From positions 2,471 through 32,103 of the IMG/VR virus record IMGVR_UViG_3300030101_003411: a stretch of DNA of 29,633 nucleotides. The stretch is one strand, 5' to 3'. Shown piece after piece: positions 1 through 9,035 of the stretch. The position numbers were made by a program, and so were the translations under genes. Each line of letters begins with the position of its first letter. Positions within the stretch are counted from its first letter, which is position 1. A model generated the notes under the pieces. The model saw only the letters and a program-made list of their open reading frames with translations. It did no database searches and was not told where the DNA came from. Origin of the DNA: a virus.

Positions 1-410
1 TAAAATTCGAACCATTCATCTTCAAATATATCATAACCTGCTTCTGTTAGGTAGTTGTCTGATTTGAATACATAATATTTACCCATTTCTTCACTTACCA
101 TTTCAAATAATTCGTCGTCAAAGTGTTTTAGTATTTTATCTATAATAGCTCGTTTAGTTTGTGCTATATCGTTTTTTGTATATCTGCTTGGATTCATTTC
201 TTCTTCTATTTGTTGAGCCATTACTTCTTGAGCATTGCTCCATGTTTTGTTATAGTGTTCGTTAAGTTCTTTGTTTTCTTCAGGCCAATGCCTTTTACAT
301 CCTTCAGCTCCTGCCTTATCAAGGTCTTCTTGATGAATATCACCATCGTAGTTGTCTATAGTGGCTGTCCAATGTGGATTAACCTGTCTTAGTTTGTTTA
401 GATCTGCCAT
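1..410 (-). CDS. Hypothetical acidic protein, runs off the left edge
   Basis: A minus-strand reading frame starts with ATG at 410 (MADLNKLRQV) and stays open for 136 codons to the window edge, where the last two bases are TA, possibly the start of a stop codon. The product is hydrophilic and acidic, with a middle stretch rich in Glu, Asn and Lys (for example EEMNPSRYTKNDIAQTKR) and a C-terminal part rich in Asp, Glu and aromatics (FEDEWFEF). No signal peptide, membrane segment or catalytic motif is visible and I do not recognise the family. It overlaps the end of the 379-510 gene, and it is the most distal gene seen in the leftward unit that starts at the promoter near 816. Confidence 0.7.
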   Translation of the reverse strand, partial: MADLNKLRQVNPHWTATIDNYDGDIHQEDLDKAGAEGCKRHWPEENKELNEHYNKTWSNAQEVMAQQIEEEMNPSRYTKNDIAQTKRAIIDKILKHFDDELFEMVSEEMGKYYVFKSDNYLTEAGYDIFEDEWFEF

Positions 411-510
411 TTTTATGTTTAGTTTTACGTGTATATTTCTTTTTATTCCTATGAACAGAGGGACGCATAGCGTCGTATATTTCTTTCATGGTTACTTTTA
501 TTTTTTTCAT
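379..510 (-). CDS. Small strongly basic peptide, 43 aa
   Basis: The ATG at 510 gives MKKIKVTMKEIYDAM followed by an Arg/Lys-rich tail (RNKKKYTRKTKHKNGRSKQ) and a TAA at 379-381. The start lies directly next to the 3' end of the tRNA-like gene, and the last 32 bases overlap the next gene in another frame. The high positive charge could suit nucleic-acid or ribosome binding, but that is only inference. An internal ATG at 489 (MKEIYDAM) is an alternative start. It is short and unrecognised, so it is held with moderate confidence. The packing is like that of its neighbours. Confidence 0.45.
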   Translation of the reverse strand: MKKIKVTMKEIYDAMRPSVHRNKKKYTRKTKHKNGRSKQTKTG

Positions 511-512
511 AG

Positions 513-594
513 AGCGAGAGAGAGGATTCGAACCTCTCATGTCTAGAACAGTCGCCAAGAGTTTTTAATCTCTACATGCATACCTGACCTCGCT
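513..594 (-). tRNA. Divergent class II tRNA-like gene, possible Leu(TAA)
   Basis: Read on the minus strand, 594-588 (AGCGAGG) pairs with 519-513 (TCTCGCT) as an acceptor stem, and 538-520 forms a T-arm with the typical GGTTCGAATCC. Between them is a stem AGAG/CTCT enclosing ATTAAAAA, which places TAA in the anticodon position as in tRNA-Leu. A long variable region follows (TGGCGACTGTTCTAGACAT). Several points are abnormal. The D-arm is only about 14 nt with no convincing stem, the anticodon loop is 8 nt rather than 7, the acceptor and T stems fit as 7+6 rather than 7+5, and no CCA is encoded. It may be a specialised, a degenerate or a mis-sequenced tRNA. Confidence 0.5.
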
Positions 595-596
595 GT

Positions 597-657
597 CCAA
601 GCTGAGCCGTCACTCAGCCCCACGGTTTTTCTTCTTCACCGCTACGACACGGTGTGT
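597..657 (-). ncRNA. GC-rich structured segment beside the tRNA
   Basis: This short segment is far richer in G and C than its AT-rich surroundings and holds two perfect stem-loops: GCTGAG/CTCAGC at 601-606/613-618 and CACCG/CGGTG at 637-641/650-654. The loop bases CCGT at 607-610 are also complementary to ACGG at 622-625, so alternative pairing is possible. No reading frame occupies it. In the leftward direction it lies between the 47-aa gene and the tRNA. It could be part of a processed tRNA precursor or a separate small RNA. Strand is assumed from the neighbouring genes. Confidence 0.35.
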
Positions 658-669
658 TGAAGTTGTGGT

Positions 670-813
670 TTATTTTTGTACAAAAGTCAAGCCTTTGTAG
701 TTAAACCATGACGTTAAGTCGTCTGGTATGCTATCTATAGTGTAACCTTTGTATAATTTGTTGTCTAATTTTATTTTAGACCTGTCGCTTGGGTAAAATT
801 TTATTGTTTTCAT
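670..813 (-). CDS. Hypothetical 47-aa protein behind a T7-like promoter
   Basis: ATG at 813 gives MKTIKFYPSDRSKIK and ends YKGLTFVQK before a TAA at 670-672. It is a short soluble peptide with several aromatics and lysines and the segment YTIDSIPDDLTSWF. The start lies about a dozen bases after the conserved phage-type promoter at 816-849, so this is the first gene of that unit and probably strongly transcribed. No family is recognised. Its reading frame and its tight fit to the promoter support it being real despite its size. Confidence 0.65.
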   Translation of the reverse strand: MKTIKFYPSDRSKIKLDNKLYKGYTIDSIPDDLTSWFNYKGLTFVQK

Positions 814-815
814 AT

Positions 816-849
816 TTATATTATCTTTTACTTATCGTATTTATTTTGT
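816..849 (-). promoter_or_regulatory. T7-like phage promoter, copy 1
   Basis: Read on the minus strand this is ACAAAATAAATACGATAAG followed by TAAAAGATAATATA. It shares the core TAAATACGA and the AAAGATAATAT start region with five other copies in the left arm. It overlaps the stop codon of the 841-1089 gene and drives the 47-aa gene, the structured RNA and tRNA region, and the last two genes. Confidence 0.75.
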
Positions 850-1089
850 ATATTCTTTTTTCTTCTTTTCAGCTTTATTATATTCTTTTTCAACTTGGTA
901 AGCTATTGTTTCTAATATGTTATAATAATTTCTAGCCCATCCCTCCTCTATTAAGTCCAACTCATAATCTTTTTGAATATAATTTTGTAAAGTATAAATA
1001 TCTTTTGATATTTGTTTTAATTTATGTGGAGAATAAGGTTTATAAGTGCTACAACTAACGAACATTAGTGATATAATTAATTTTTTCAT
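841..1089 (-). CDS. Small putative lipoprotein, 82 aa (copy A)
   Basis: The N-terminus MKKLIISLMFVSCSTYK is a short charged and hydrophobic leader ending in Cys-13, which looks like a lipoprotein signal with a relaxed lipobox. The rest is a helical charged domain with the pattern I..LQ.YI..D....L...WA.NYYN.LE, ending in a Lys/Glu-rich tail. The protein at 3258-3509 has the same layout and pattern. The start overlaps the stop of the upstream 45-aa gene by ATGA. It would sit in the host inner or outer membrane; superinfection exclusion or envelope modification are possible roles, but these are inference. Its stop codon lies inside the next promoter. Confidence 0.7.
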   Translation of the reverse strand: MKKLIISLMFVSCSTYKPYSPHKLKQISKDIYTLQNYIQKDYELDLIEEGWARNYYNILETIAYQVEKEYNKAEKKKKEYTK

Positions 1090-1223
1090 TGAGTGTTGTT
1101 TACTAGTTTTCGTACCGCTGCGCCAAGTTCTTGATCGTTTGGATACTTATCAGTCAATGATTGTACTTGCCACCACCTTAATTTCATTAAAGCTTCTTCT
1201 TCTAAAATATTTGAGTTTCTCAT
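1086..1223 (-). CDS. Hypothetical 45-aa protein
   Basis: ATG at 1223 gives MRNSNILEEEALMKLRWWQVQ and ends KLVNNTQ with TGA at 1086-1088. Both ends overlap neighbours by the four bases ATGA, the signature of translational coupling, which is the main reason to accept so short a gene. The product is helical and amphipathic, with a WW pair and no membrane segment or cysteine. Function is unknown. Confidence 0.65.
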   Translation of the reverse strand: MRNSNILEEEALMKLRWWQVQSLTDKYPNDQELGAAVRKLVNNTQ

Positions 1224-1423
1224 AGTTCTTCAAATTTTATATTACTATCATCGTCAAACCAAGTATGTTTTGGATCTATTATTAGTTCGCCTTCATATAT
1301 TTTTCTTGCTTGGTTGTGAGCATATTGCCACTTTTGTGTTTCTGTACCTGCTTTTTGTGTAGTACCATAGTATCCGGCTAAGATATCTTTTGTTATAGCC
1401 TCTATTGCTTGTATTTCATTCAT
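1220..1423 (-). CDS. Hypothetical 67-aa protein
   Basis: I take the ATG at 1423 (MNEIQAIEAITKDILAGYY), which overlaps the upstream stop by 8 bases. An in-frame ATG at 1435 (MVKKMNEIQ) would add four residues. The protein is small and soluble, helical at the N-terminus, and acidic at the C-terminus (HTWFDDDSNIKFEEL). No catalytic or metal-binding motif is seen and the family is not recognised. It is coupled by ATGA to the 45-aa gene downstream in the unit that starts at the promoter near 2788. Confidence 0.65.
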   Translation of the reverse strand: MNEIQAIEAITKDILAGYYGTTQKAGTETQKWQYAHNQARKIYEGELIIDPKHTWFDDDSNIKFEEL

Positions 1424-1580
1424 TTTCTTCACCATTAAAAGTTTGATAGTAATCTAATTCGTCTTGTAATTTAGATATTAGTTCTTCTAAGTACCATGTT
1501 ATTTCTTCTACATCACCGCCAAAGTTGTTGTGAAAGAGATCATGTACTTCTTCCATTGTTCTGCTTACGTATTTACTCAT
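1416..1580 (-). CDS. Hypothetical acidic 54-aa protein
   Basis: ATG at 1580 gives MSKYVSRTMEEVHDLFHNNFG and the frame runs to TGA at 1416-1418. The start follows directly after the stop of the MSYCRF-type gene (TAA then ATG), and the end overlaps the next gene. The protein is acidic and mostly helical, with a tyrosine- and glutamate-rich C-terminal half (LISKLQDELDYYQTF). It resembles the short acidic coiled proteins common in phage early regions, but I cannot name a family. Confidence 0.65.
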   Translation of the reverse strand: MSKYVSRTMEEVHDLFHNNFGGDVEEITWYLEELISKLQDELDYYQTFNGEENE

Positions 1581-1766
1581 TTAGTATATTATTCTTTTTA
1601 TTTCTTCTTCCATTTGCATTATGTCTTCAGCCATTTCTAATAGTCTAGTTAAACCATTTAGTTCATAGCTGTTCAGATTTTCTGTCTCACCTCTTTCTAT
1701 CGCAGAAATACAGTCTGCTAAATCATTTGCAGTGTTTTCAAACCTGCAGTAACTCATATTTGCCAT
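1581..1766 (-). CDS. Conserved MSYCRF-type phage protein, 61 aa
   Basis: The N-terminus MANMSYCRFENTANDLADC resembles a small conserved protein that I recall from many phages, usually beginning MSYCRFENT and with a second cysteine about 13 residues later. The remainder is helical and acidic (LTRLLEMAEDIMQMEEEIK). The function of that group is unknown to me. The start could instead be the inner Met at 1757, which matches the common family start better. It sits in the middle of the coupled leftward gene string. Confidence 0.75.
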   Translation of the reverse strand: MANMSYCRFENTANDLADCISAIERGETENLNSYELNGLTRLLEMAEDIMQMEEEIKRIIY

Positions 1767-1767
1767 A

Positions 1768-1938
1768 TTATTTAATTAATTCGTTTATTACTTTATTTAT
1801 TAGCTTGTCAGCATCTTCAACATACTTGTCGTCAGTTTCAGTATAACCTAGTTCTTCAAACATATAGTAGTCTAGCTCATTATAAAGTACAGTAACTAAT
1901 CTGTCACATACTTTGTATATTACTTCTTGCTCAGTCAT
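1768..1938 (-). CDS. Hypothetical acidic 56-aa protein
   Basis: The ATG at 1938 (MTEQEVIYKVCDRLV) overlaps the upstream stop by ATGA, which favours it over an upstream ATG at 2001 that would run 64 bases into the preceding gene. The protein is helical and acidic, with DADKLINKVINELIK at the C-terminus and a Tyr-rich middle (LDYYMFEELGYTETDDKY). No known motif is seen. Confidence 0.65.
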   Translation of the reverse strand: MTEQEVIYKVCDRLVTVLYNELDYYMFEELGYTETDDKYVEDADKLINKVINELIK

Positions 1939-2222
1939 ATTAAATCTAGTTTTTTGATTAATTCTTGTGATTTTTCTTTTAGCATATAACCGCCGTGACA
2001 AGTCATTAACATGTTATGTAACACTTCGGTTACATTATGTGTACCTTGTACATGAAATGATGGAGCACCACTTGATGAATCTTTTCTGAAGTCATAGAAC
2101 ATAGATCCGCCGTACCTATTTGATAGTTTTTCTACATCAGCTACAAACTTATCTACTATTTCTCTACACTCTGCGCTTACTTTTTGTTGAAGTGCTTTTT
2201 CTATTGTGTTTAAATCTTTCAC
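1935..2222 (-). CDS. Hypothetical 95-aa protein with GTG start
   Basis: The frame begins with GTG at 2222 (MKDLNTIEKALQQKVSAEC), overlapping the upstream TGA as GTGA, and ends at 1935 in an ATGA overlap. The N-terminal half is helical. The second half has a serine/glycine-rich stretch (FRKDSSSGAPSFHVQGTH) that could be a surface loop or beta region, then a helical end. No catalytic motif is recognised. The non-ATG start may lower expression relative to its neighbours. Confidence 0.65.
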   Translation of the reverse strand: MKDLNTIEKALQQKVSAECREIVDKFVADVEKLSNRYGGSMFYDFRKDSSSGAPSFHVQGTHNVTEVLHNMLMTCHGGYMLKEKSQELIKKLDLI

Positions 2223-2371
2223 TTTTTCTTAGTTTTTAATTCGTTAATCTCACTTTTCAACTGGTGGATTTCAGTTTGACACTTTCTCATAGCGTCTTTC
2301 ATTTTTCTTGCTTGATAGAATTCATTCCAAGAATAGAGATTTTGTAGCTGTTTTATTTTACGACTTACCAT
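2219..2371 (-). CDS. Small basic coiled-coil protein, 50 aa
   Basis: ATG at 2371 gives MVSRKIKQLQNLYSWNEFY and ends in a heptad-like Lys/Glu/Leu stretch (IHQLKSEINELKTKKK). It is basic and probably helical. It overlaps the membrane peptide upstream by 7 bases and the GTG-start gene downstream by 4. The function is unknown; a coiled coil suggests a protein-protein contact. Confidence 0.65.
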   Translation of the reverse strand: MVSRKIKQLQNLYSWNEFYQARKMKDAMRKCQTEIHQLKSEINELKTKKK

Positions 2372-2523
2372 CCAAAGAAAGTTTTATATATTTCTTGTAC
2401 TACTGCGACCATCGCTGTTAACCATACTCCTAAGAATATTGTAGTCATAACTGTTGCATATATTTTAAGCATATGCCACTCGACTGCTTTATAGCAGAAC
2501 TTTTTTATTGCTTCTTTAACCAT
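2365..2523 (-). CDS. Single-span membrane peptide, 52 aa
   Basis: ATG at 2523 gives MVKEAIKKFCYKAVEWHML, a basic amphipathic start, then one hydrophobic span (about residues 22 to 43: YATVMTTIFLGVWLTAMVAV) and a short tail. Positive residues before the span suggest the N-terminus stays in the cytoplasm. It overlaps the upstream gene by 8 bases and the downstream gene by 7. Such single-span peptides in early phage regions often act on host membrane proteins, but nothing here shows the target. Confidence 0.65.
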   Translation of the reverse strand: MVKEAIKKFCYKAVEWHMLKIYATVMTTIFLGVWLTAMVAVVQEIYKTFFGW

Positions 2524-2782
2524 TTTTATATTTTTTTAATTTGGTTAGTAATTCGTGTATTTCTTCGTTTGGAAAGGTAGAATACACCTCGTCTACCTTG
2601 TCTTTGACATAGTCAAATGTGAATTCGTTTGGTTTAACACCGTAATGACTTACAATTAAATCTCTTTTGTCGTAACCATAAGGACTATGGTATGAATTGA
2701 ATATTTGTAGCTTCATGTCTCTGCCATAATTGAGTATCATAGCGTCAAGATTTTTTGTGGATATGTATGTTACGTTGTTCAT
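2516..2782 (-). CDS. Hypothetical 88-aa protein, first gene after promoter 2
   Basis: ATG at 2782 gives MNNVTYISTKNLDAMILNYG, about 15 bases after the predicted start of transcription at the promoter 2788-2818. It is a soluble alpha/beta-looking protein with a Tyr-rich middle (YHSPYGYDKRDL) and a charged helical end (IHELLTKLKKYKNG). No family is recognised. Its position at the head of a ten-gene coupled string means it is probably the best expressed gene of that unit. Confidence 0.7.
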   Translation of the reverse strand: MNNVTYISTKNLDAMILNYGRDMKLQIFNSYHSPYGYDKRDLIVSHYGVKPNEFTFDYVKDKVDEVYSTFPNEEIHELLTKLKKYKNG

Positions 2783-2787
2783 ATTGT

Positions 2788-2818
2788 TATTATCTTTACT
2801 TATTCGTATTTAGTTTGT
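2788..2818 (-). promoter_or_regulatory. T7-like phage promoter, copy 2
   Basis: On the minus strand this reads ACAAACTAAATACGAATAAG then TAAAGATAATA. It matches the six-copy consensus and lies 6 bases upstream of the 88-aa gene start. It overlaps the stop codon of the 144-aa gene. It heads the longest leftward string, from 2782 down to 841. Confidence 0.78.
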
Positions 2819-3244
2819 AATTAGTTTGGTTAATTTTACAATAGTATTATATTGTAGTTGTGATATTTCGTAGTTATCGAGTGCACGTTGTAAGTAACGA
2901 GCAGCAAGATCTTGATCTATATCATAGTAATCTACATAAGTTTTGCCAACTTGTTCGTATAATTGTTGACTACCTACGTTAGTTAAGCGACAGCCATTAC
3001 CGATTTTACGCTTTTTAGTAACAGATTTACCTGATAAAGCGCGAAGAGTTGAGTAACCTGCACGTTGTAGTAACTTACTAGCTTTTGCTGCGTCACTACG
3101 AGACATAACTTGTATTGAGTTGCCTGTTTTGTGGTTGATAGTATCTATGCAACCATAACGCTCGACAGTTGAGCACTCGACACACGTAGTATAACCTAGT
3201 GACAAGCGAGCTTTTGGTATTATATTTTTACATTTGCATTTCAT
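2810..3244 (-). CDS. Putative zinc-binding protein, 144 aa
   Basis: The true start is most likely the ATG at 3244 (MKCKCKNIIPKARLSLGY). An upstream in-frame ATG at 3265 lies inside the promoter, so the seven residues it would add are promoter sequence. The N-terminus carries a C-x-C pair (Cys-3, Cys-5) and a C-x2-C pair (TTCVEC), which together would form a four-Cys zinc site. The rest is basic with an Ala/Lys-rich helical part (SDAAKASKLLQRAGYSTLRAL) and a basic KSVTKKRKIGNGCRL. The combination suggests nucleic-acid or transcription-factor contact; this is inference. It is transcribed alone from the promoter at 3249. Confidence 0.75.
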   Translation of the reverse strand: MKCKCKNIIPKARLSLGYTTCVECSTVERYGCIDTINHKTGNSIQVMSRSDAAKASKLLQRAGYSTLRALSGKSVTKKRKIGNGCRLTNVGSQQLYEQVGKTYVDYYDIDQDLAARYLQRALDNYEISQLQYNTIVKLTKLITN

Positions 3245-3248
3245 ATAT

Positions 3249-3280
3249 ATATTATCTTTACTCATTCGTATTTATATTGT
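3249..3280 (-). promoter_or_regulatory. T7-like phage promoter, copy 3
   Basis: On the minus strand this reads ACAATATAAATACGAATGAG then TAAAGATAATATA. It lies inside the last codons of the 83-aa lipoprotein gene, so that gene's final residues NINTNE are encoded by promoter bases. It drives the putative zinc protein with a leader of about 15 bases. Confidence 0.78.
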
Positions 3281-3509
3281 ACAAATATATACTTAGATCT
3301 TCTGCTTCATCTAGATATTCTATATAATACTCTGCATAAGCTGAGTCAATTATACCTTGTTTCATATCTTCTCGCATCCACTCACGCATGTCTGCTATGT
3401 TATCTACAAGGTGATTCCAATGAGCTTGTTCAGGTAATTCTACTTTTGTACCATCTTGTTGGCAACTAAGTCCGCTTAGTAAACCAATAGTTATTATTAT
3501 TTTATTCAT
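3258..3509 (-). CDS. Small putative lipoprotein, 83 aa (copy B)
   Basis: MNKIIITIGLLSGLSCQQDG is a short hydrophobic leader ending in Cys-16, followed by polar residues, as in a lipoprotein signal. The mature part has the same helical pattern as the protein at 841-1089 (I..MREWM..DM......A.YYIEYLDEAE), and both end just before a promoter. The start overlaps the upstream stop by ATGA. It is predicted to be exported and lipid-anchored. Its role is unknown; related small phage lipoproteins can be exclusion factors or outer spanins, but no partner inner spanin is seen here. Confidence 0.7.
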   Translation of the reverse strand: MNKIIITIGLLSGLSCQQDGTKVELPEQAHWNHLVDNIADMREWMREDMKQGIIDSAYAEYYIEYLDEAEDLSIYLYNINTNE

Positions 3510-3715
3510 AAGTTATTAGTTAAGTTGTAAATAGTTTTATCAGTGTGAAACATATATTCCACTTCAGTTAAATCATAGCCAAGACCTGTTATAAAATCGT
3601 CTAGTTCTTCGCTATTAGTAATTTTTTCATAGTCAATATCATTGTATTGATGTATTTCACCTGCTGAATAATCAAGTACAGTTAGTGTTTGATTTGGGTA
3701 TAGTTTAGTTTTCAT
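3506..3715 (-). CDS. Hypothetical acidic 69-aa protein
   Basis: The ATG at 3715 (MKTKLYPNQTLTVLDYSAG) overlaps the upstream stop by ATGA, so I prefer it to an in-frame ATG at 3748. The protein is acidic with many Asp, Tyr and Thr residues (IDYEKITNSEELDDFITGL) and ends IYNLTNNL. No membrane segment or cysteine is present. It is coupled to the lipoprotein gene downstream. Not recognised. Confidence 0.65.
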   Translation of the reverse strand: MKTKLYPNQTLTVLDYSAGEIHQYNDIDYEKITNSEELDDFITGLGYDLTEVEYMFHTDKTIYNLTNNL

Positions 3716-3906
3716 AGATTTATTACTTTTATTGGTAAGTTGTAACAACCTTCTTCGTAGAATATTGCTTTTTCAAATGCACTTATATCATCTTCAAACT
3801 CATTTTCTATAAATTCTAATAGTTCTTGAGTTAGTTCTATTGACTCGTGCGTTAGCCAAGTAGATTCTTGAGTATTATCTCTAGGTATTATTTCTAATTC
3901 GTACAT
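3712..3906 (-). CDS. Hypothetical acidic 64-aa protein
   Basis: MYELEIIPRDNTQESTWLT starts 2 bases after the stop of the preceding gene. It is very acidic in its central helix (LLEFIENEFEDDISAFEKA) and ends in a short hydrophobic strand (LPIKVINL). Such small acidic proteins in phage early regions are often DNA mimics or protein inhibitors, but nothing here goes beyond composition. Confidence 0.65.
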   Translation of the reverse strand: MYELEIIPRDNTQESTWLTHESIELTQELLEFIENEFEDDISAFEKAIFYEEGCYNLPIKVINL

Positions 3907-3908
3907 AG

Positions 3909-4109
3909 TTATAGTATTTGACCGAGTATTTCGTAAAGATTATCTTGTTTGTCTTTACTTAGTTTAACATATTCACCGTGAGATTTACCTGGGTAATCTG
4001 CTAAGTGATTAACGACTTGCTGAGTTAATTCAGCTTGAGTGACAGTCTTTTCCATTTCTGCGAATGCTTTTGACCAAGTCCAGTTTGAAGGATTATTAGG
4101 ATTATACAT
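3909..4109 (-). CDS. Hypothetical 66-aa protein, first gene after promoter 4
   Basis: MYNPNNPSNWTWSKAFAEM begins about 85 bases after the promoter at 4193-4229. The N-terminus is Asn/Pro/Trp-rich and the remainder helical (VTQAELTQQVVNHLADYPG). No known motif is seen. The leader between promoter and start contains a small hairpin, CATGC/GTATG, near 4163-4176. It heads a four-gene coupled unit ending in lipoprotein copy B. Confidence 0.65.
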   Translation of the reverse strand: MYNPNNPSNWTWSKAFAEMEKTVTQAELTQQVVNHLADYPGKSHGEYVKLSKDKQDNLYEILGQIL

Positions 4110-4192
4110 AGTTATTAATTTTAAAAAGTTTGTGCCAAGTCAGGTGTTCGTATTATTTATACATGCTAAAGTATGACTATCAACGACATGTT

Positions 4193-4229
4193 TATATTAT
4201 AATCTTTACTTAATCGTATTTACATTGTA
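4193..4229 (-). promoter_or_regulatory. T7-like phage promoter, copy 4
   Basis: On the minus strand this reads ACAATGTAAATACGATTAAG then TAAAGATTATAATATA. It overlaps the stop codon of the 42-aa membrane peptide gene and heads the unit 4109 to 3258. The variant start region GATTATAATATA is shared with copy 6. Confidence 0.78.
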
Positions 4230-4348
4230 CAGTAGTCAATTACTACCATTACTATAAAGATTATTACTATTGCTAGAAGTGCATCATTTGCTACTTGCTC
4301 ATCTTGCTTGTTACTTTTATATTTATCTTTGTAATTAAATTTTCTCAT
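4220..4348 (-). CDS. Single-span membrane peptide, 42 aa
   Basis: ATG at 4348 gives MRKFNYKDKYKSNKQDEQVA, a basic cytoplasmic head, then a hydrophobic span (ALLAIVIIFIVMVVI) and a short tail DYCTM before TAA inside the next promoter. Its start shares one base with the stop of the upstream 28-aa peptide (TAATG). The layout predicts an inner-membrane peptide with a cytoplasmic N-terminus. Function unknown. Confidence 0.6.
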   Translation of the reverse strand: MRKFNYKDKYKSNKQDEQVANDALLAIVIIFIVMVVIDYCTM

Positions 4349-4434
4349 TATTTATTAGTTATTAATTGGTGAATAATATCAACTAGTATTATAGTTGGAA
4401 TAATTAGTGTCATAGTGGATATAATTAGTATCAT
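4348..4434 (-). CDS. Possible hydrophobic micropeptide, 28 aa
   Basis: ATG at 4434 opens a frame encoding a nearly continuous hydrophobic stretch (MILIISTMTLIIPTIILVDI) with a short polar tail HQLITNK and a TAA that overlaps the next ATG as TAATG. The coupling and the clean membrane-span composition favour a real peptide. AT-rich DNA can produce Ile/Leu-rich frames by chance, so confidence is limited. Confidence 0.4.
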   Translation of the reverse strand: MILIISTMTLIIPTIILVDIIHQLITNK

Positions 4435-4537
4435 AAGAGTGTATATTTGTTTAGTTATTAAATTTTATTAAATAGTTCAACACTTGATATCTCAATATCT
4501 TACATAGATATTAAATATATTTTATTTAAGTGTTATA

Positions 4538-4580
4538 TGACATAAGCTAGTTAATATATAAGAGTAACTAGCTATTGTCA
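4538..4580. repeat. Large inverted repeat, copy 1
   Basis: TGACATAAGCTAGTTA faces TAACTAGCTATTGTCA across a short AT-rich loop, giving a long imperfect stem. A related copy with the same outer TGACA/TGTCA and inner TAACTAGCTA lies at 5307-5349. It sits between the end of the 79-aa gene and the two membrane peptides. It could act as a terminator or processing site for leftward transcripts, or as a protein-binding site. Confidence 0.6.
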
Positions 4581-4587
4581 CATGTTA

Positions 4588-4827
4588 CTACTCACTTATA
4601 GTACTTAATTCTCTGCAGAATTTTGGTACAATGTTAGAGTTAGTATAAGATTTGTACTCTTGAAAGCAGTTCATTGACTCGAACTTTTCTTGAAATGTAG
4701 AGTATATTTCGTCATGATCATAAGTATATGTAATACCTTTTGAGTTAGTGAATGTAATGATAGCATTCTCGCCAATTAATGATTTTCTGATTACGAATCT
4801 TTTAGTAGTTATATTATTAGTTTTCAT
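4588..4827 (-). CDS. Hypothetical 79-aa protein after promoter 5
   Basis: MKTNNITTKRFVIRKSLIG starts about 40 bases after the promoter at 4863-4896. The sequence looks like a small beta-rich domain (ENAIITFTNSKGITYTYDHD) followed by a helix and a C-terminal part with one cysteine (PKFCRELSTISE). No family is recognised. It is followed directly by the inverted repeat at 4538-4580, so it may be a one-gene transcript. Confidence 0.65.
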   Translation of the reverse strand: MKTNNITTKRFVIRKSLIGENAIITFTNSKGITYTYDHDEIYSTFQEKFESMNCFQEYKSYTNSNIVPKFCRELSTISE

Positions 4828-4862
4828 AGTTTATATATATTTATTTATTAATTATTAGTTTA

Positions 4863-4896
4863 TTATATTATCTTTTGTATGTCGTATTTAGTTTGT
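4863..4896 (-). promoter_or_regulatory. T7-like phage promoter, copy 5
   Basis: On the minus strand this reads ACAAACTAAATACGACATAC then AAAAGATAATATA. The core and start region match the other copies, but the spacer differs (CATACA). It drives the 79-aa gene with a leader of about 40 bases rich in A and T. Confidence 0.72.
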
Positions 4897-4904
4897 ATAA
4901 TGAA

Positions 4905-5045
4905 TTAGCTTTTATAATCAGGTAATTCATTATGATGTTGCATGAATTTGTAATGCATTGGATGGTTAGTATAATGCCAGCCTTTTGATAGCATTTCATA
5001 TAAGTTAGTAATTTCTTGATTTTGTTTTTTAGTTAAATTATTCAT
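4905..5045 (-). CDS. Hypothetical 46-aa protein, first leftward gene
   Basis: ATG at 5045 gives MNNLTKKQNQEITNLYEML and ends NELPDYKS with TAA at 4905-4907. It is polar and contains a His/Tyr/Met-rich middle (WHYTNHPMHYKFMQHHN) that could bind metal; this is inference from composition. It is the first gene of the left arm, behind the best match to a T7 promoter in the window, so it may be among the first and most strongly made proteins of this set. Confidence 0.65.
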   Translation of the reverse strand: MNNLTKKQNQEITNLYEMLSKGWHYTNHPMHYKFMQHHNELPDYKS

Positions 5046-5086
5046 ATTGTTTATATTAAGTTGTTATTAGCTTTTGTTTGTTTGTT

Positions 5087-5122
5087 TATATTATAATCTT
5101 TAATGAGTCGTATTTAGTTTGC
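5087..5122 (-). promoter_or_regulatory. T7-like phage promoter, copy 6 (best match)
   Basis: On the minus strand this reads GCAAACTAAATACGACTCAT then TAAAGATTATAATATA. Aligned to the T7 class III promoter (AATACGACTCACTATAG), AATACGACTCATTAAAG matches at 15 of 17 positions. The start would be the G of GAT. It heads the leftward arm. Confidence 0.85.
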
Positions 5123-5123
5123 A

Positions 5124-5167
5124 ACGTAATATTGTAGCAAATATGTGAATGTCGACGCAATATTGTA
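5124..5167. repeat. Direct repeat ACGYAATATTGTA
   Basis: ACGTAATATTGTA at 5124-5136 and ACGCAATATTGTA at 5155-5167 differ by one base and start 31 bp apart, about three helical turns. Each contains the palindrome AATATT. They sit just behind the leftward promoter and could be binding sites for a regulator or replication protein. Confidence 0.4.
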
Positions 5168-5190
5168 ATGAAAAGGTAAAACGTTATGCA

Positions 5191-5211
5191 ATAATCGATT
5201 AAAAAAAGGGG
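5191..5211 (+). promoter_or_regulatory. Possible rightward phage promoter for structural genes
   Basis: ATAATCGATTAAAAAAAGGGG has the CGA core at the same distance from a G-run as in T7 promoters (CGA at -12 to -10 if the first G of GGGG is +1). The other positions match poorly. It is the only GGGG-starting candidate in front of the right arm, so I list it as a weak candidate. Confidence 0.25.
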
Positions 5212-5306
5212 CGGCCATGAAATTAAATTGCGTTTTGTGTTGAGGTTACACAATAAAATTTTGGGGTAAAGAACTATACCTCTATATATCTAACACTATT
5301 TTTATA

Positions 5307-5349
5307 TGACATTAGGTTGTTAAGTATAAATAATAACTAGCTAGTGTCA
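5307..5349. repeat. Large inverted repeat, copy 2
   Basis: TGACATTAGGTTGTTA faces TAACTAGCTAGTGTCA across an AT-rich loop. The two mismatches within the arms would be G-U pairs in RNA, so the stem is kept at RNA level if read in the right orientation. The arrangement and outer bases match the copy at 4538-4580. It lies in the leader of the structural operon. Confidence 0.6.
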
Positions 5350-5439
5350 CACTTTGCCGTTTATGTAAATTTATCTATTTATATGTAAATAACTATATAT
5401 AACGAACTTATTATAACAACATTAAACAAAATTGACCAA

Positions 5440-7452
5440 ATGGCAATAATTTATACATATACAAAAGTAACACCTCAGCCACTAGATTCTATGGTTATCA
5501 CAGATGTGGATAACAAGAATTTTACTAAAACGGCTTTAATAGGAGAAGCGGTCAATGAATCTATTGCCGCTGGTACTAACATCTGCTTAGGATGGGATAG
5601 TAACACGGGTATTACAACTATAAACTCAGCTAGTTACTCATTTGAAGGAATTTATGAACCACAATTTTGGGAGGTAAAACTTAACAAAGATTTATGTGGA
5701 TTAGCATCTACAGTAGATATTTTAAAATTTATTATAACTCCAGTAAATGGAACAGACGTAATATCTACAGGCGAACCATTAGACTACGATACATCGAATC
5801 CGGATGTTTGGAACTTAACACAGTTTGCTTATGGAGGCGGTGGAAATGTAGGATATGTTCCAGCTGGTGGTGATGTAGGTGAATATTTAGATGGTGGAAC
5901 CGGATTATGGACAACATTACCTGCAGATCAAAATACTACATATGATCTTACTGCAGCAGCTGATGTTACAACTCCTGCAAACATGAACATTTTATTGAAC
6001 GGATCTGATACTACTGTCGACACAGTTACATTGGTACCAGGTACTAATATAACAATGACCGACTTAGGTTCTAATCAAATACAGATAGAAGCTGCAACAG
6101 GTGGTTATTCATGGGATGTATCAGGTGGATCTAACACATACACTGTATCAAATGCCGAGAAAGTTAAGTTTACAGGTGCTGGTGGTATTTCAGTAAGTTG
6201 CTCTGCAGATCCAAACACTGGTAGTCCTTACACAGTTAATATAGATGGTAGTGGTATTTCACCAGGTACTGGTACAGTTACAAAAGTAGGTGCTAATACG
6301 AATGTTAGTGTTGCGTCTAGTGGTCTTTCAGTATCTACAACACCTTCCGCTGGTATTACGAGTACTGGAGATGTTGACTTAAAATGGAGTGGTTCTGTAG
6401 GAGATTTATTAACTGCTGAAAGTGATGGTTCGGGCGGTGCTATATTAACTAAATTAGCTATATCCACAAATAGTGGCGATGTATTAACAAGTAATGGATC
6501 AACTGCATCGTGGCAAACCCCATCTACGCCTCCTGGCGGTTGTTCTAAAGCTATAGGAGAATTTACAGTTACAGCCGGAAATACTGTTACAGTAGATAAT
6601 TGTGGTGAAACAATAGCTTTTGCATCCGGCAATAATACTGTAGAAATAACAGGAACAAACACTGCAGGTAGTAAATCTATAGATCTTGAAATTAAAAACT
6701 TACCATGTGCATCATCTGTAAATAATGGTGGTATAAAAGTAAACAATACTTTATATACTGGAAGTATAGAGGCAGTAAGCAGTGGTAAAGCTTATCCTGT
6801 TCAAGTAAACGATGGTTGTGAAGCAGTTGTAAGAATACCAGCCAGTTCAGCTCCAAGCGACATAGTAGGAACATTTGAACCAATAATGGTTGAACAAGGG
6901 TTTGATGGTACAGGTAGTTTACAACCACACACATATGTAAATTCAATGATCAATAGCACTGGTAGATACAGAGTATCTGGAGGTATAGCTTATATAGAAT
7001 TTTATGTAGAATTTGACGGAGCACCAAATACGTATTTACTAAATACACTTGGTGTAGCTATTGCAGCGCCACAAGGCAGCAGAGATCCGGTATTAGGTCT
7101 TGAAACTTTAAATGGTCTTGCTAACTTACCCACAAACAATGATATGAATGCTTGTGTTACAATAGCTGATTGTGGTTTAAAAAATGTTTCAGATATTAAT
7201 GGAATTGCAAGTTGGAGAAGAGCAGTAGTTGGTGGAAAACTAAATAAGTTTTATGGATTAAATCCTGATAAAGAACTTAAATCAGTTATTTGGCTTATGA
7301 ATGGTGGATCAGCAAATACATCTGGAATTAGACAATCACCAACTTGGGGTGTACAACCAAGCCCAACGTCTGGAGATTATTGGTTACAATTTACAAATGA
7401 CGCAGGAAACCCATATGTAGCAGGAAGTTTAACCATTAGTTTAAACCAGTAA
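5440..7452 (+). CDS. Tail fibre or receptor-binding protein, 670 aa
   Basis: The first gene of the right arm. The sequence is rich in Gly, Ser, Thr, Asn and Val with few charges, typical of beta-structured trimeric fibres. It contains fibre-shaft style elements such as PADQNTTYDL (residues 161-170), GTNITMTDLGSNQIQIEA and LTSNGSTASWQ. The 697-aa protein at 16480 carries the same DxNTTYDL elements, so the two are related modular fibres. The N-terminal 100 residues are distinct and may attach to the tail. The last 150 residues (ending VAGSLTISLNQ) form a separate region that could be the receptor-binding tip. No catalytic motif is seen. The chaperonin genes follow directly. Confidence 0.75.
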   Translation: MAIIYTYTKVTPQPLDSMVITDVDNKNFTKTALIGEAVNESIAAGTNICLGWDSNTGITTINSASYSFEGIYEPQFWEVKLNKDLCGLASTVDILKFIITPVNGTDVISTGEPLDYDTSNPDVWNLTQFAYGGGGNVGYVPAGGDVGEYLDGGTGLWTTLPADQNTTYDLTAAADVTTPANMNILLNGSDTTVDTVTLVPGTNITMTDLGSNQIQIEAATGGYSWDVSGGSNTYTVSNAEKVKFTGAGGISVSCSADPNTGSPYTVNIDGSGISPGTGTVTKVGANTNVSVASSGLSVSTTPSAGITSTGDVDLKWSGSVGDLLTAESDGSGGAILTKLAISTNSGDVLTSNGSTASWQTPSTPPGGCSKAIGEFTVTAGNTVTVDNCGETIAFASGNNTVEITGTNTAGSKSIDLEIKNLPCASSVNNGGIKVNNTLYTGSIEAVSSGKAYPVQVNDGCEAVVRIPASSAPSDIVGTFEPIMVEQGFDGTGSLQPHTYVNSMINSTGRYRVSGGIAYIEFYVEFDGAPNTYLLNTLGVAIAAPQGSRDPVLGLETLNGLANLPTNNDMNACVTIADCGLKNVSDINGIASWRRAVVGGKLNKFYGLNPDKELKSVIWLMNGGSANTSGIRQSPTWGVQPSPTSGDYWLQFTNDAGNPYVAGSLTISLNQ

Positions 7453-7493: not shown

Positions 7494-9035
7494 ATGAACA
7501 ATACAATAGTTAAGCATCTTAACTTCGGTGAAGATGCAAGAGGCAAGATATATGCCGGTATAGAGAAATTAACAAACGCTGTTAGTTCTACATTAGGAGC
7601 TAGTGGAAAGTGTGTTATAATGGAAGACTTAAATGGTAATCCTATTATAACTAAAGATGGGGTTACAGTAGCAGAAAGTGTTATATTATTAGATGCAGTG
7701 GAAAACATCGGATCTAAACTTATAAAACAAGCTGCTAAAAGAACTGTAAAAGAAGCGGGTGACGGAACGACAACCGCCACGGTTTTAGCGCATGCTATAC
7801 TAACAGAAGCTTATAAAGCGATAAAATCGGAAAATCCACGTCAATTAAAAGAAGGTATTAATTTGGCTGTTGAAAAAGTAGTGCGTTATCTTGAGAAAAA
7901 TTCTTCAAAAGTTGAAGGTGATAAAATAAAACAAGTAGCTACTATCTCAGCCAATAACGATTCACAAATAGGAGAAATAATATCTACTGCGTTTAAAATG
8001 GTAGATGAAACTGGTATAGTCTTGATGGAAACTCACGACATGCCAGACACTATTGTGGAGAAAATAGAAGGTGTTCAATACGAAGAAGGTTTTTATAGTA
8101 ACCACTTTGTTACTAATAAAGAAAAAAATACAGCAGAATTAGATAATCCTCTAGTTTTAATACTAGAAAGCACATTAGATAACATTAGAAAAGTACAAAA
8201 CGTACTAGAACATGTTATAAAAAATGGAGAAAGCTTGTTAATTATAGCTGATGTAGACCCTCAAGTTGGAAATGCTTTAGCAATGAATAAAATTAAGGGT
8301 AATATTAAGGTAAATATTATAAATACACCACCATTTGGGGTAAATAAAAAGACAACTTTACAAGATTTAGCTTTATTAACAGGAGCTACAGTGATAAATG
8401 AGCAATTAGGAGACGATTTAGACTTGATAAATGTTGATCATTTAGGTAAATGTGTAAAATCTACCTCAACAAATGAAGAAACTGTGCTACAATTGGAAAA
8501 AATACCAGAAGAAGTGCAAAATTTAGTAAAAAAATTAAAATCTGAAATAAAATCTTTATCAAATCCTAATTCTATAACAAATCAAGAGAAAAGAATTGCT
8601 AGATTGTCCGCAAAAGTAGCTGTTGTCAAGGTTGGTGCTAATTCTGAGGTAGAATTAAAAGAAAAACGTGATAGAGTAGAAGATGCTATTTGTGCTACAA
8701 AAGCCGCGATTAAAGAAGGTATAGTACCTGGAGGTGGTATAGCGTTATTAAACGCTTCTCAATCTATAAATGCTAAATCAAAAGCAGAAGAAGTTTTATT
8801 GGAAGCTATTAAAGCTCCTTATTCAACTATTTTACAAAATGCTGGTATAAATGATTATGAAACACCAACCTCTAAAGGTAAAGGATTGAATGTGGTTACA
8901 GGTAAAACGGTAAGTATGGTAAAGTCCGGAATAATAGATCCTTTATTAGTAACTAAAAGCGCTTTAAAAAACGCGGCTTCTGTAGCTACTACTATTTTAT
9001 CTACTGATTGTGTAATTAATAATATAAGAGCATGA
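7494..9035 (+). CDS. groEL: Phage-encoded chaperonin GroEL
   Basis: A 513-aa group I chaperonin that refolds proteins in an ATP-driven ring with GroES. Family landmarks are in place: TLGASGK near residue 33 (usually TLGPKGR), ITKDGVTVA at 52-60 with the Asp matching E. coli D52, GDGTTTATVLA at 89-99 with the Asp matching D87, and RVEDA at 394-398 with the catalytic Asp matching D398, then PGGG at 412-415. It is about 35 residues shorter than bacterial GroEL and lacks the Gly/Met-rich C-terminal tail, ending VINNIRA. The altered GASGK loop and missing tail mark it as a divergent phage form rather than a recent host copy. It overlaps groES by ATGA. Likely clients are the large capsid or fibre proteins; that is inference. 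Confidence 0.96.
   Translation: MNNTIVKHLNFGEDARGKIYAGIEKLTNAVSSTLGASGKCVIMEDLNGNPIITKDGVTVAESVILLDAVENIGSKLIKQAAKRTVKEAGDGTTTATVLAHAILTEAYKAIKSENPRQLKEGINLAVEKVVRYLEKNSSKVEGDKIKQVATISANNDSQIGEIISTAFKMVDETGIVLMETHDMPDTIVEKIEGVQYEEGFYSNHFVTNKEKNTAELDNPLVLILESTLDNIRKVQNVLEHVIKNGESLLIIADVDPQVGNALAMNKIKGNIKVNIINTPPFGVNKKTTLQDLALLTGATVINEQLGDDLDLINVDHLGKCVKSTSTNEETVLQLEKIPEEVQNLVKKLKSEIKSLSNPNSITNQEKRIARLSAKVAVVKVGANSEVELKEKRDRVEDAICATKAAIKEGIVPGGGIALLNASQSINAKSKAEEVLLEAIKAPYSTILQNAGINDYETPTSKGKGLNVVTGKTVSMVKSGIIDPLLVTKSALKNAASVATTILSTDCVINNIRA

Follow-up and report, generated by a model that had tools for sequence, protein, structure and literature searches.

In bacteriophage T4, MotA acts together with sigma70, and the middle promoters have a conserved box near -30 in addition to a -10 element. 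Phage sigma factors are also an established kind of protein; gp36 of phiEco32 and gp47 of Salmonella phage 7-11 redirect the host polymerase to phage promoters (PMC8948821). The promoters of phage 7-11 are described there as bipartite, with fixed spacing and with starts 6–9 bp from the element, and the consensus given for the two phages is GTAAtg-(16)-aCTA or tAATGTAtA (PMC8948821). Here we analyse a repeated element in a 29,633-base stretch of viral DNA (the window), positions 2471–32103 of the 58,065-base IMG/VR record IMGVR_UViG_3300030101_003411. Six copies of the element lie on the minus strand ahead of leftward genes, and these are very probably real promoters. In our best reading they belong to a phage sigma regulon, in which a phage-made sigma factor would direct host RNA polymerase to the sites; we hold this view with good confidence, and a helix-turn-helix (HTH) protein, HTH206, is probably included in the regulon. 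Recognition by a T7-type polymerase, as an earlier note on this DNA had proposed, is not supported.

The putative promoters share with those of phage 7-11 the fixed spacing of their parts and a start a few bases from the last of them, and as with gp36 and gp47 a phage sigma would redirect the host enzyme. They differ from the phiEco32 and 7-11 promoters in having three elements with an inner box, in their putative leaderless starts, in the coupled HTH protein and in that the relatives here infect flavobacteria. A conserved box near -30 with a -10 recalls T4 middle promoters; unlike in T4, a phage sigma gene here adjoins that of the HTH protein, and the -10 differs from the box of flavobacterial sigmaA. 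A sigma-70 gene was noted in 2017 in OBV_N00025, a group 2 phage of marine Bacteroidetes (PMC5332604). It belongs to the phi38:1 group and may be a member of the clade studied here. The section that mentions the gene gives only its best match, and the main text of that account does not contain the word ‘promoter’. We found no description of the motif, of its link to sigma or of the HTH partner among the papers listed in literature searches, an absence that carries little weight.

All six sites were found where the earlier note had placed them, with TAAATACGA starting at 5116, 4890, 4222, 3274, 2812 and 843, and a repeat search of window positions 800–5440 returned one group consisting of exactly these six. 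A seventh copy lies in the same record to the left of the window (L001 909–878, minus strand). The full motif is TTACAAAn-TAAATACGA-N7-AAGATAATA; it includes an upstream part that the note had missed, TACAA, 7 bases upstream, and the spacer, given there as 6–8 bases, is always 7 bases to AAGAT. A position weight matrix, built from the seven sites that it scores, gives them 40–46 bits, against 7.7 for the runner-up in the 58-kb record and 13.2 for the best place in 20 Markov-1 genomes of 58 kb. The proposal that the sites are promoters ahead of leftward gene units is supported. Measured from the putative start, the first ATG that heads 25 codons or more is at 0 nt for sites 843, 2812 and 3274 and for the seventh copy, and at 33 nt (site 4890), 83 nt (4222) and 41 nt (5116) for the others. 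The base at the putative start is A at all seven sites of this record, and an ATG falls exactly there in four of the seven.

Related viral contigs also carry the motif. Scanning IMG/VR for TAAATACGA-N7-AAGATWATA returned at least 118 stretches, and related contigs yield 689 non-redundant sites, which are distinct in sequence yet not independent; related loci share descent, and IMG/VR records may be fragments. Spacing was counted in the 118 loci, the window and L001, not deduplicated, with up to two mismatches in 18 bases. A spacing of 7 to AAGAT accounts for 421 matches (169, 128 and 124 at 0, 1 and 2 mismatches), spacings of 6 and 8 for none, 5 for three, 10 for 62, 11 for two and 12 for 66. 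None of the matches at 10, 11 or 12 is perfect and we take them for shifted matches within AT-rich repeats; the 7-base spacer is unvarying. With up to three mismatches in 22 bases, the motif is present in 35 of 46 records, in 1 to 22 copies each, and is confined to one strand in 31 of the 35; the reversed pattern, at the same tolerance, occurs in none of the 46. The 11 records without the motif are G019, G032, G037–G039 (large, with a distant sigma) and six named relatives: MW202828, Flavobacterium elemoE_6-9C, Maribacter Panino, Cellulophaga phi19:3 and phi38:1, and Tenacibaculum Gundel_1. Variants retain the spacing. In G019, which has the sigma gene and does not match the pattern, TTCGAA replaces the TTACAA part in four of six sites with spacing unchanged; G034 has mostly AAATACA with GGATAATA, G033 has TATAATA in 5/5 and G030 has TTGCAGA in 4/4.

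Start codons indicate where transcription would begin. With the T of TAAATACGA counted as 0, position 30 lies 7 bases past GATAAT; an ATG is found there in 185 of the 689 sites, and 176 of these 185 begin an open frame of 40 codons or more. Positions 19–29 hold 20 open ATGs in total. An ATG at position 28 was also considered as a start codon and rejected, as only 8 of 125 cases are open. At the 379 sites with an ATG at neither 28 nor 30, a purine occupies position 30 in 96% and a pyrimidine position 29 in 67%. Judged from sequence, the pattern is that of a sigma-type start in which GATAAT serves as the -10 and TTACAAA lies at -38 to -32, and +1 would fall at position 30. The earlier note had predicted a start at the G of AAAGAT (position 18); open ATGs and the purine sit at position 30, and so would place +1 twelve bases downstream. 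Since start codons pile up on the purine, many of the mRNAs should be leaderless. Leaderless mRNAs make up 5.5% in Flavobacterium psychrophilum (PMC9723704).

The same data bear on a T7-type single-subunit RNA polymerase as the reader of the sites. In its favour, AATACGA and its distance to the following G match the T7 class III promoter exactly, the spacing is rigid, and the site at 5087 indeed agrees with that promoter at 15 of 17 core positions (-16 to +1). The six other sites agree at only 10–13 of 17, conservation extends about 8 bases further upstream than a T7 promoter, and the start codons place +1 elsewhere. No match to PF00940, the T7-type polymerase family, was found in the window's own record or in 19 related viral records of 57–71 kb (18 picked by the motif, one by terminase). 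T7 itself was detected at E 9.9e-110 and is the control that counts, as the family does not occur in the 14 control genomes. We thus consider a T7-type enzyme very improbable. The beta' domain PF04997 was absent from 18/18 viral records and present in 14/14 cellular controls, so that in these sequences no phage core polymerase appears to be encoded. The broader expectation that the specificity would be unlike that of T7 and that a transcription gene would lie outside the window holds in outline; in the relatives the gene beyond the left end of the record is one for a sigma-70 family factor, not a polymerase.

A polymerase carried in the virion within a giant structural protein, reading the sites as the earliest promoters, has a precedent in N4 or crAss-like phages. 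Giant proteins of 1365–3675 aa are present in this group and the sites lie in a block that looks first-transcribed. However, no polymerase appears among the Protein Data Bank (PDB) sequence matches of four giant proteins, and the 3675-aa and 1790-aa proteins have no Pfam match; this explanation seems to us scarcely credible. The 3675-aa protein (L003:1603–12630) has no PHROG match either; elemoE encodes a protein of similar size that is annotated as structural.

In a 71-kb relative (G001), the block beside the sites encodes a DNA ligase, HTH206, a 251-aa sigma-70 family protein, ERF and an exonuclease, together with a primase/helicase, thymidylate synthase, MazG and ribonucleotide reductase. 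The sigma protein matches Pfam region 2 (1.7e-5), Pfam region 4 (3.6e-7) and phrog_351 (1.4e-21), and each Pfam region is recognised in 20 of the 25 members aligned (E 1e-3). It also matches the solved SigB, SigA and FliA chains in sequence, with a best E of 8e-7. Its AlphaFold model (pLDDT 78, pTM 0.47) was compared with Foldseek; all 50 of the matches listed are initiation-complex or sigma entries, the best at E 3e-6. The whole model superposes loosely (TM about 0.3) because the sigma domains are placed differently, while domain 2 alone aligns with 7xya_F over 98 residues at an rmsd of 2.2 Å and a Z of 13.4. On this evidence the relatives encode a protein of the sigma-70 family that has regions 2 and 4. 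No close relative of it was found among 50,697 phage records, which gave five weak matches, the best at E 9e-6. G034 holds two different sigma genes of this family (L263:10001–10753 and L288:17782–18534), and in G009 (L251, L252) the sigma frame is broken by stops and matched as two overlapping pieces.

The sigma gene is present in 27 of 33 records, or 27 of the 30 related IMG/VR records; these comprise 26 of the 29 motif-chosen records besides the window's own, and G019, which was chosen by terminase. The six records without it are the window's own, three motif-bearing records of 57.5–58.8 kb, MW202828 and elemoE; it is present in two others of comparable length (58.8 and 59.3 kb). The six named relatives have neither the motif nor sigma region 2. 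Loci anchored on the ligase provide a sample not picked by the motif. Eighty were fetched, and 41 are fully covered, with 3 kb or more of upstream and 3.2 kb or more of downstream flank. Motif and sigma are both present in 33 of the 41 and both missing in 8, with no discordant locus; one sigma gene (L349), overlooked by the count based on open reading frames (ORFs), was recovered by tblastn. The 39 partial loci were excluded, 17 of which miss one feature and have less than 900 bases of the relevant flank each. A Fisher value for the 41 loci is not a true probability, as the loci are related by descent.

HTH206 (e.g. L070:5165–5785) is a conserved protein with a C-terminal helix-turn-helix. Of 67 distinct sigma genes, 64 have the HTH206 gene within 800 nt upstream; in 47 it extends 4 or 14 nt past the start of sigma. 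Pfam HTH_11 is matched by 35 of 42 members at E 0.01; Foldseek found no PDB match better than E 0.65. Once ligase divergence is taken into account, motif divergence follows that of sigma (partial r 0.24, p 0.004, 30 loci) and that of HTH206 (0.32, p 0.001, 30 loci); ERF shows nothing of the kind (0.01, p 0.44). The motif thus goes with HTH206 no less closely than with sigma, which makes HTH206 a serious partner or rival reader. Element-wise Mantel tests were mixed, HTH206 going with the -35-like part and the -10, sigma with the box and the discriminator, and are not relied on, being many tests on 30 loci.

Two further explanations leave the phage sigma out of these promoters. In one, HTH206 activates the host holoenzyme at the sites and the sigma serves another, unseen promoter class, for example that of the structural genes. 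The motif follows HTH206 divergence slightly more closely than it follows that of sigma, and the TAAATACGA box, at -30 to -22, occupies the place expected of an activator box; the structural genes need a promoter, and a search upstream of them for a shared motif in five records gave nothing convincing. However, sigma too tracks the motif after ligase, and GATAAT is unlike the flavobacterial sigmaA box, reported as TAnnTTTG (PMC9723704), which differs from the motif here. The named relatives by terminase infect Flavobacterium, Cellulophaga, Tenacibaculum and Maribacter, and it is from these alone that the IMG/VR contigs may be called marine or flavobacterial. Nor are host-type promoters in excess: TTTG-N18-21-TAnnTTTG occurs 0 times in the window (1.35 expected), twice in L003 (1.0 expected) and once in L212 (0.3 expected). 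The other explanation has an alternative sigma factor of the host as reader of the sites, which do lie within an early-looking leftward block. The genomes of 84,980 bacterial and archaeal species (257 billion bases, contigs of at least 3 kb) were scanned for the exact pattern of 18 fixed bases. Only 19 single matches were found, scattered over unrelated phyla, one of them a single copy in F. psychrophilum; by a rough estimate this is near chance, and thus no host regulon with the exact pattern is seen, which counts against both explanations. We regard the activator explanation as unlikely and a host sigma factor as highly improbable.

The phage sigma regulon remains the best reading. In this mechanism, a phage factor of the sigma-70 family, about 250 aa long and containing regions 2 and 4, would recruit the host multisubunit RNA polymerase, probably with the assistance of HTH206. 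The promoter would consist of the -35-like TTACAAA at -38 to -32, the TAAATACGA box at -30 to -22 and GATAAT at -12 to -7, with a purine at +1, mostly after T or C, and for about one transcript in four +1 would coincide with the A of the start codon. That sigma reads these sites, the exact +1 and the use of the host core enzyme are inferred. The genes served would be middle genes rather than the earliest. The window's record breaks off within the ligase gene, which in relatives precedes the sigma gene; in G010, which has the closest ligase (90% identity), sigma lies 1.9 kb past the ligase match. The window's phage thus presumably carries its sigma just past the left end of the record.

Several observations weigh against this reading. 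The window's own 58-kb record has no sigma gene, and G032 has sigma and no motif, its contig beginning at sigma. A relative of the window's terminase was found in 0/8 of the loci that lack both motif and sigma, against 4/4 sigma-bearing loci tested; the eight are therefore unrelated phages, and the linkage holds at the level of the clade. Sigma, HTH206 and ERF are inherited together (28/28 each), so presence and absence cannot single out sigma. The association of the motif with HTH206 persists given sigma (0.26, p 0.001), whereas that with sigma given HTH206 is 0.11 (p 0.09). The exonuclease, a control, shows a weak signal after ligase (0.13, p 0.035, 29 loci), which vanishes after sigma (0.10, p 0.16) or HTH206. 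A conserved box at -30 to -22 with invariant spacing is unusual for recognition by sigma only. Finally, the motif occurs within 200 nt upstream of HTH206 in 0/72 regions, so these promoters would not account for the start of that operon.

An interrupted palindrome may be involved in the control of that operon. The window has two copies (Table), and in relatives a like palindrome covers the start codon of the HTH206–sigma operon. The form TGTGACA..AGCC..GGCT..TGTCACA is found in 57 of 72 regions upstream of HTH206, against a background for the search expression of 4.9% per 212 nt, and in 50 of the 57 it ends 6 nt inside the HTH206 frame as called. Three copies fold as hairpins, with z of -4.5, -3.0 and -4.1, and the element could be an operator or an RNA switch. 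It was not found in five named relatives, three of which were searched in part. Elsewhere in the family the 43-bp palindrome occurs at L211:18083, L212:5293, L213:6761, L216:5167, L220:2165 and L224:1461 and 8381, and it sits at the early/late divide. A bolder possibility, which we put forward only tentatively, is that sigma and HTH206 form a two-protein recognition unit for a rigidly spaced three-element promoter giving leaderless mRNAs, with their operon governed through the start-codon palindrome that recurs at the early/late divide; such a switch would be built on no known host promoter.

Table. Putative promoters and palindromes in the window (window coordinates)
Feature	Position	Strand	Putative +1	Downstream gene	Remarks
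Promoter 1	5092–5123	-	5086	4905–5045 (46 aa)	41-nt leader; -35-like element, TAAATACGA box, GATTATA -10-like
Promoter 2	4866–4897	-	4860	4588–4827 (79 aa)	33-nt leader; gene conserved in relatives
Promoter 3	4198–4229	-	4192	3909–4109 (66 aa)	83-nt leader
Promoter 4	3250–3281	-	3244	2810–3244 (144 aa)	+1 is A of ATG; gene conserved; longer ORF start at 3265 falls within the promoter itself
Promoter 5	2788–2819	-	2782	2516–2782 (88 aa)	+1 is A of ATG
Promoter 6	819–850	-	813	670–813 (47 aa)	+1 is A of ATG
Interrupted palindrome	4538–4580				TGACA..AGCTAG..CTAGCT..TGTCA
Second palindrome copy	5307–5349				In the gap that separates the last leftward promoter from the rightward structural genes

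Two further features of the window may be mentioned. Positions 513–600 on the minus strand resemble by eye a tRNA T arm and acceptor stem; ARAGORN, and Rfam on window positions 1–6000, found no RNA genes and no tRNA at 513–600. A phage GroEL is encoded at 7494–9035 (phrog_5725, E 1.2e-135); for the phi38:1 group, 36 genomes with GroEL have been reported (PMC5332604).

With the sigma reading, what looked like a set of T7 promoters becomes a defined and testable sigma regulon in a phage group common in IMG/VR. The sigma factor and its sites are a candidate orthogonal sigma–promoter pair for flavobacteria, and the natural variants of the promoter can be set against those of the sigma. The architecture of these promoters would favour leaderless transcripts.

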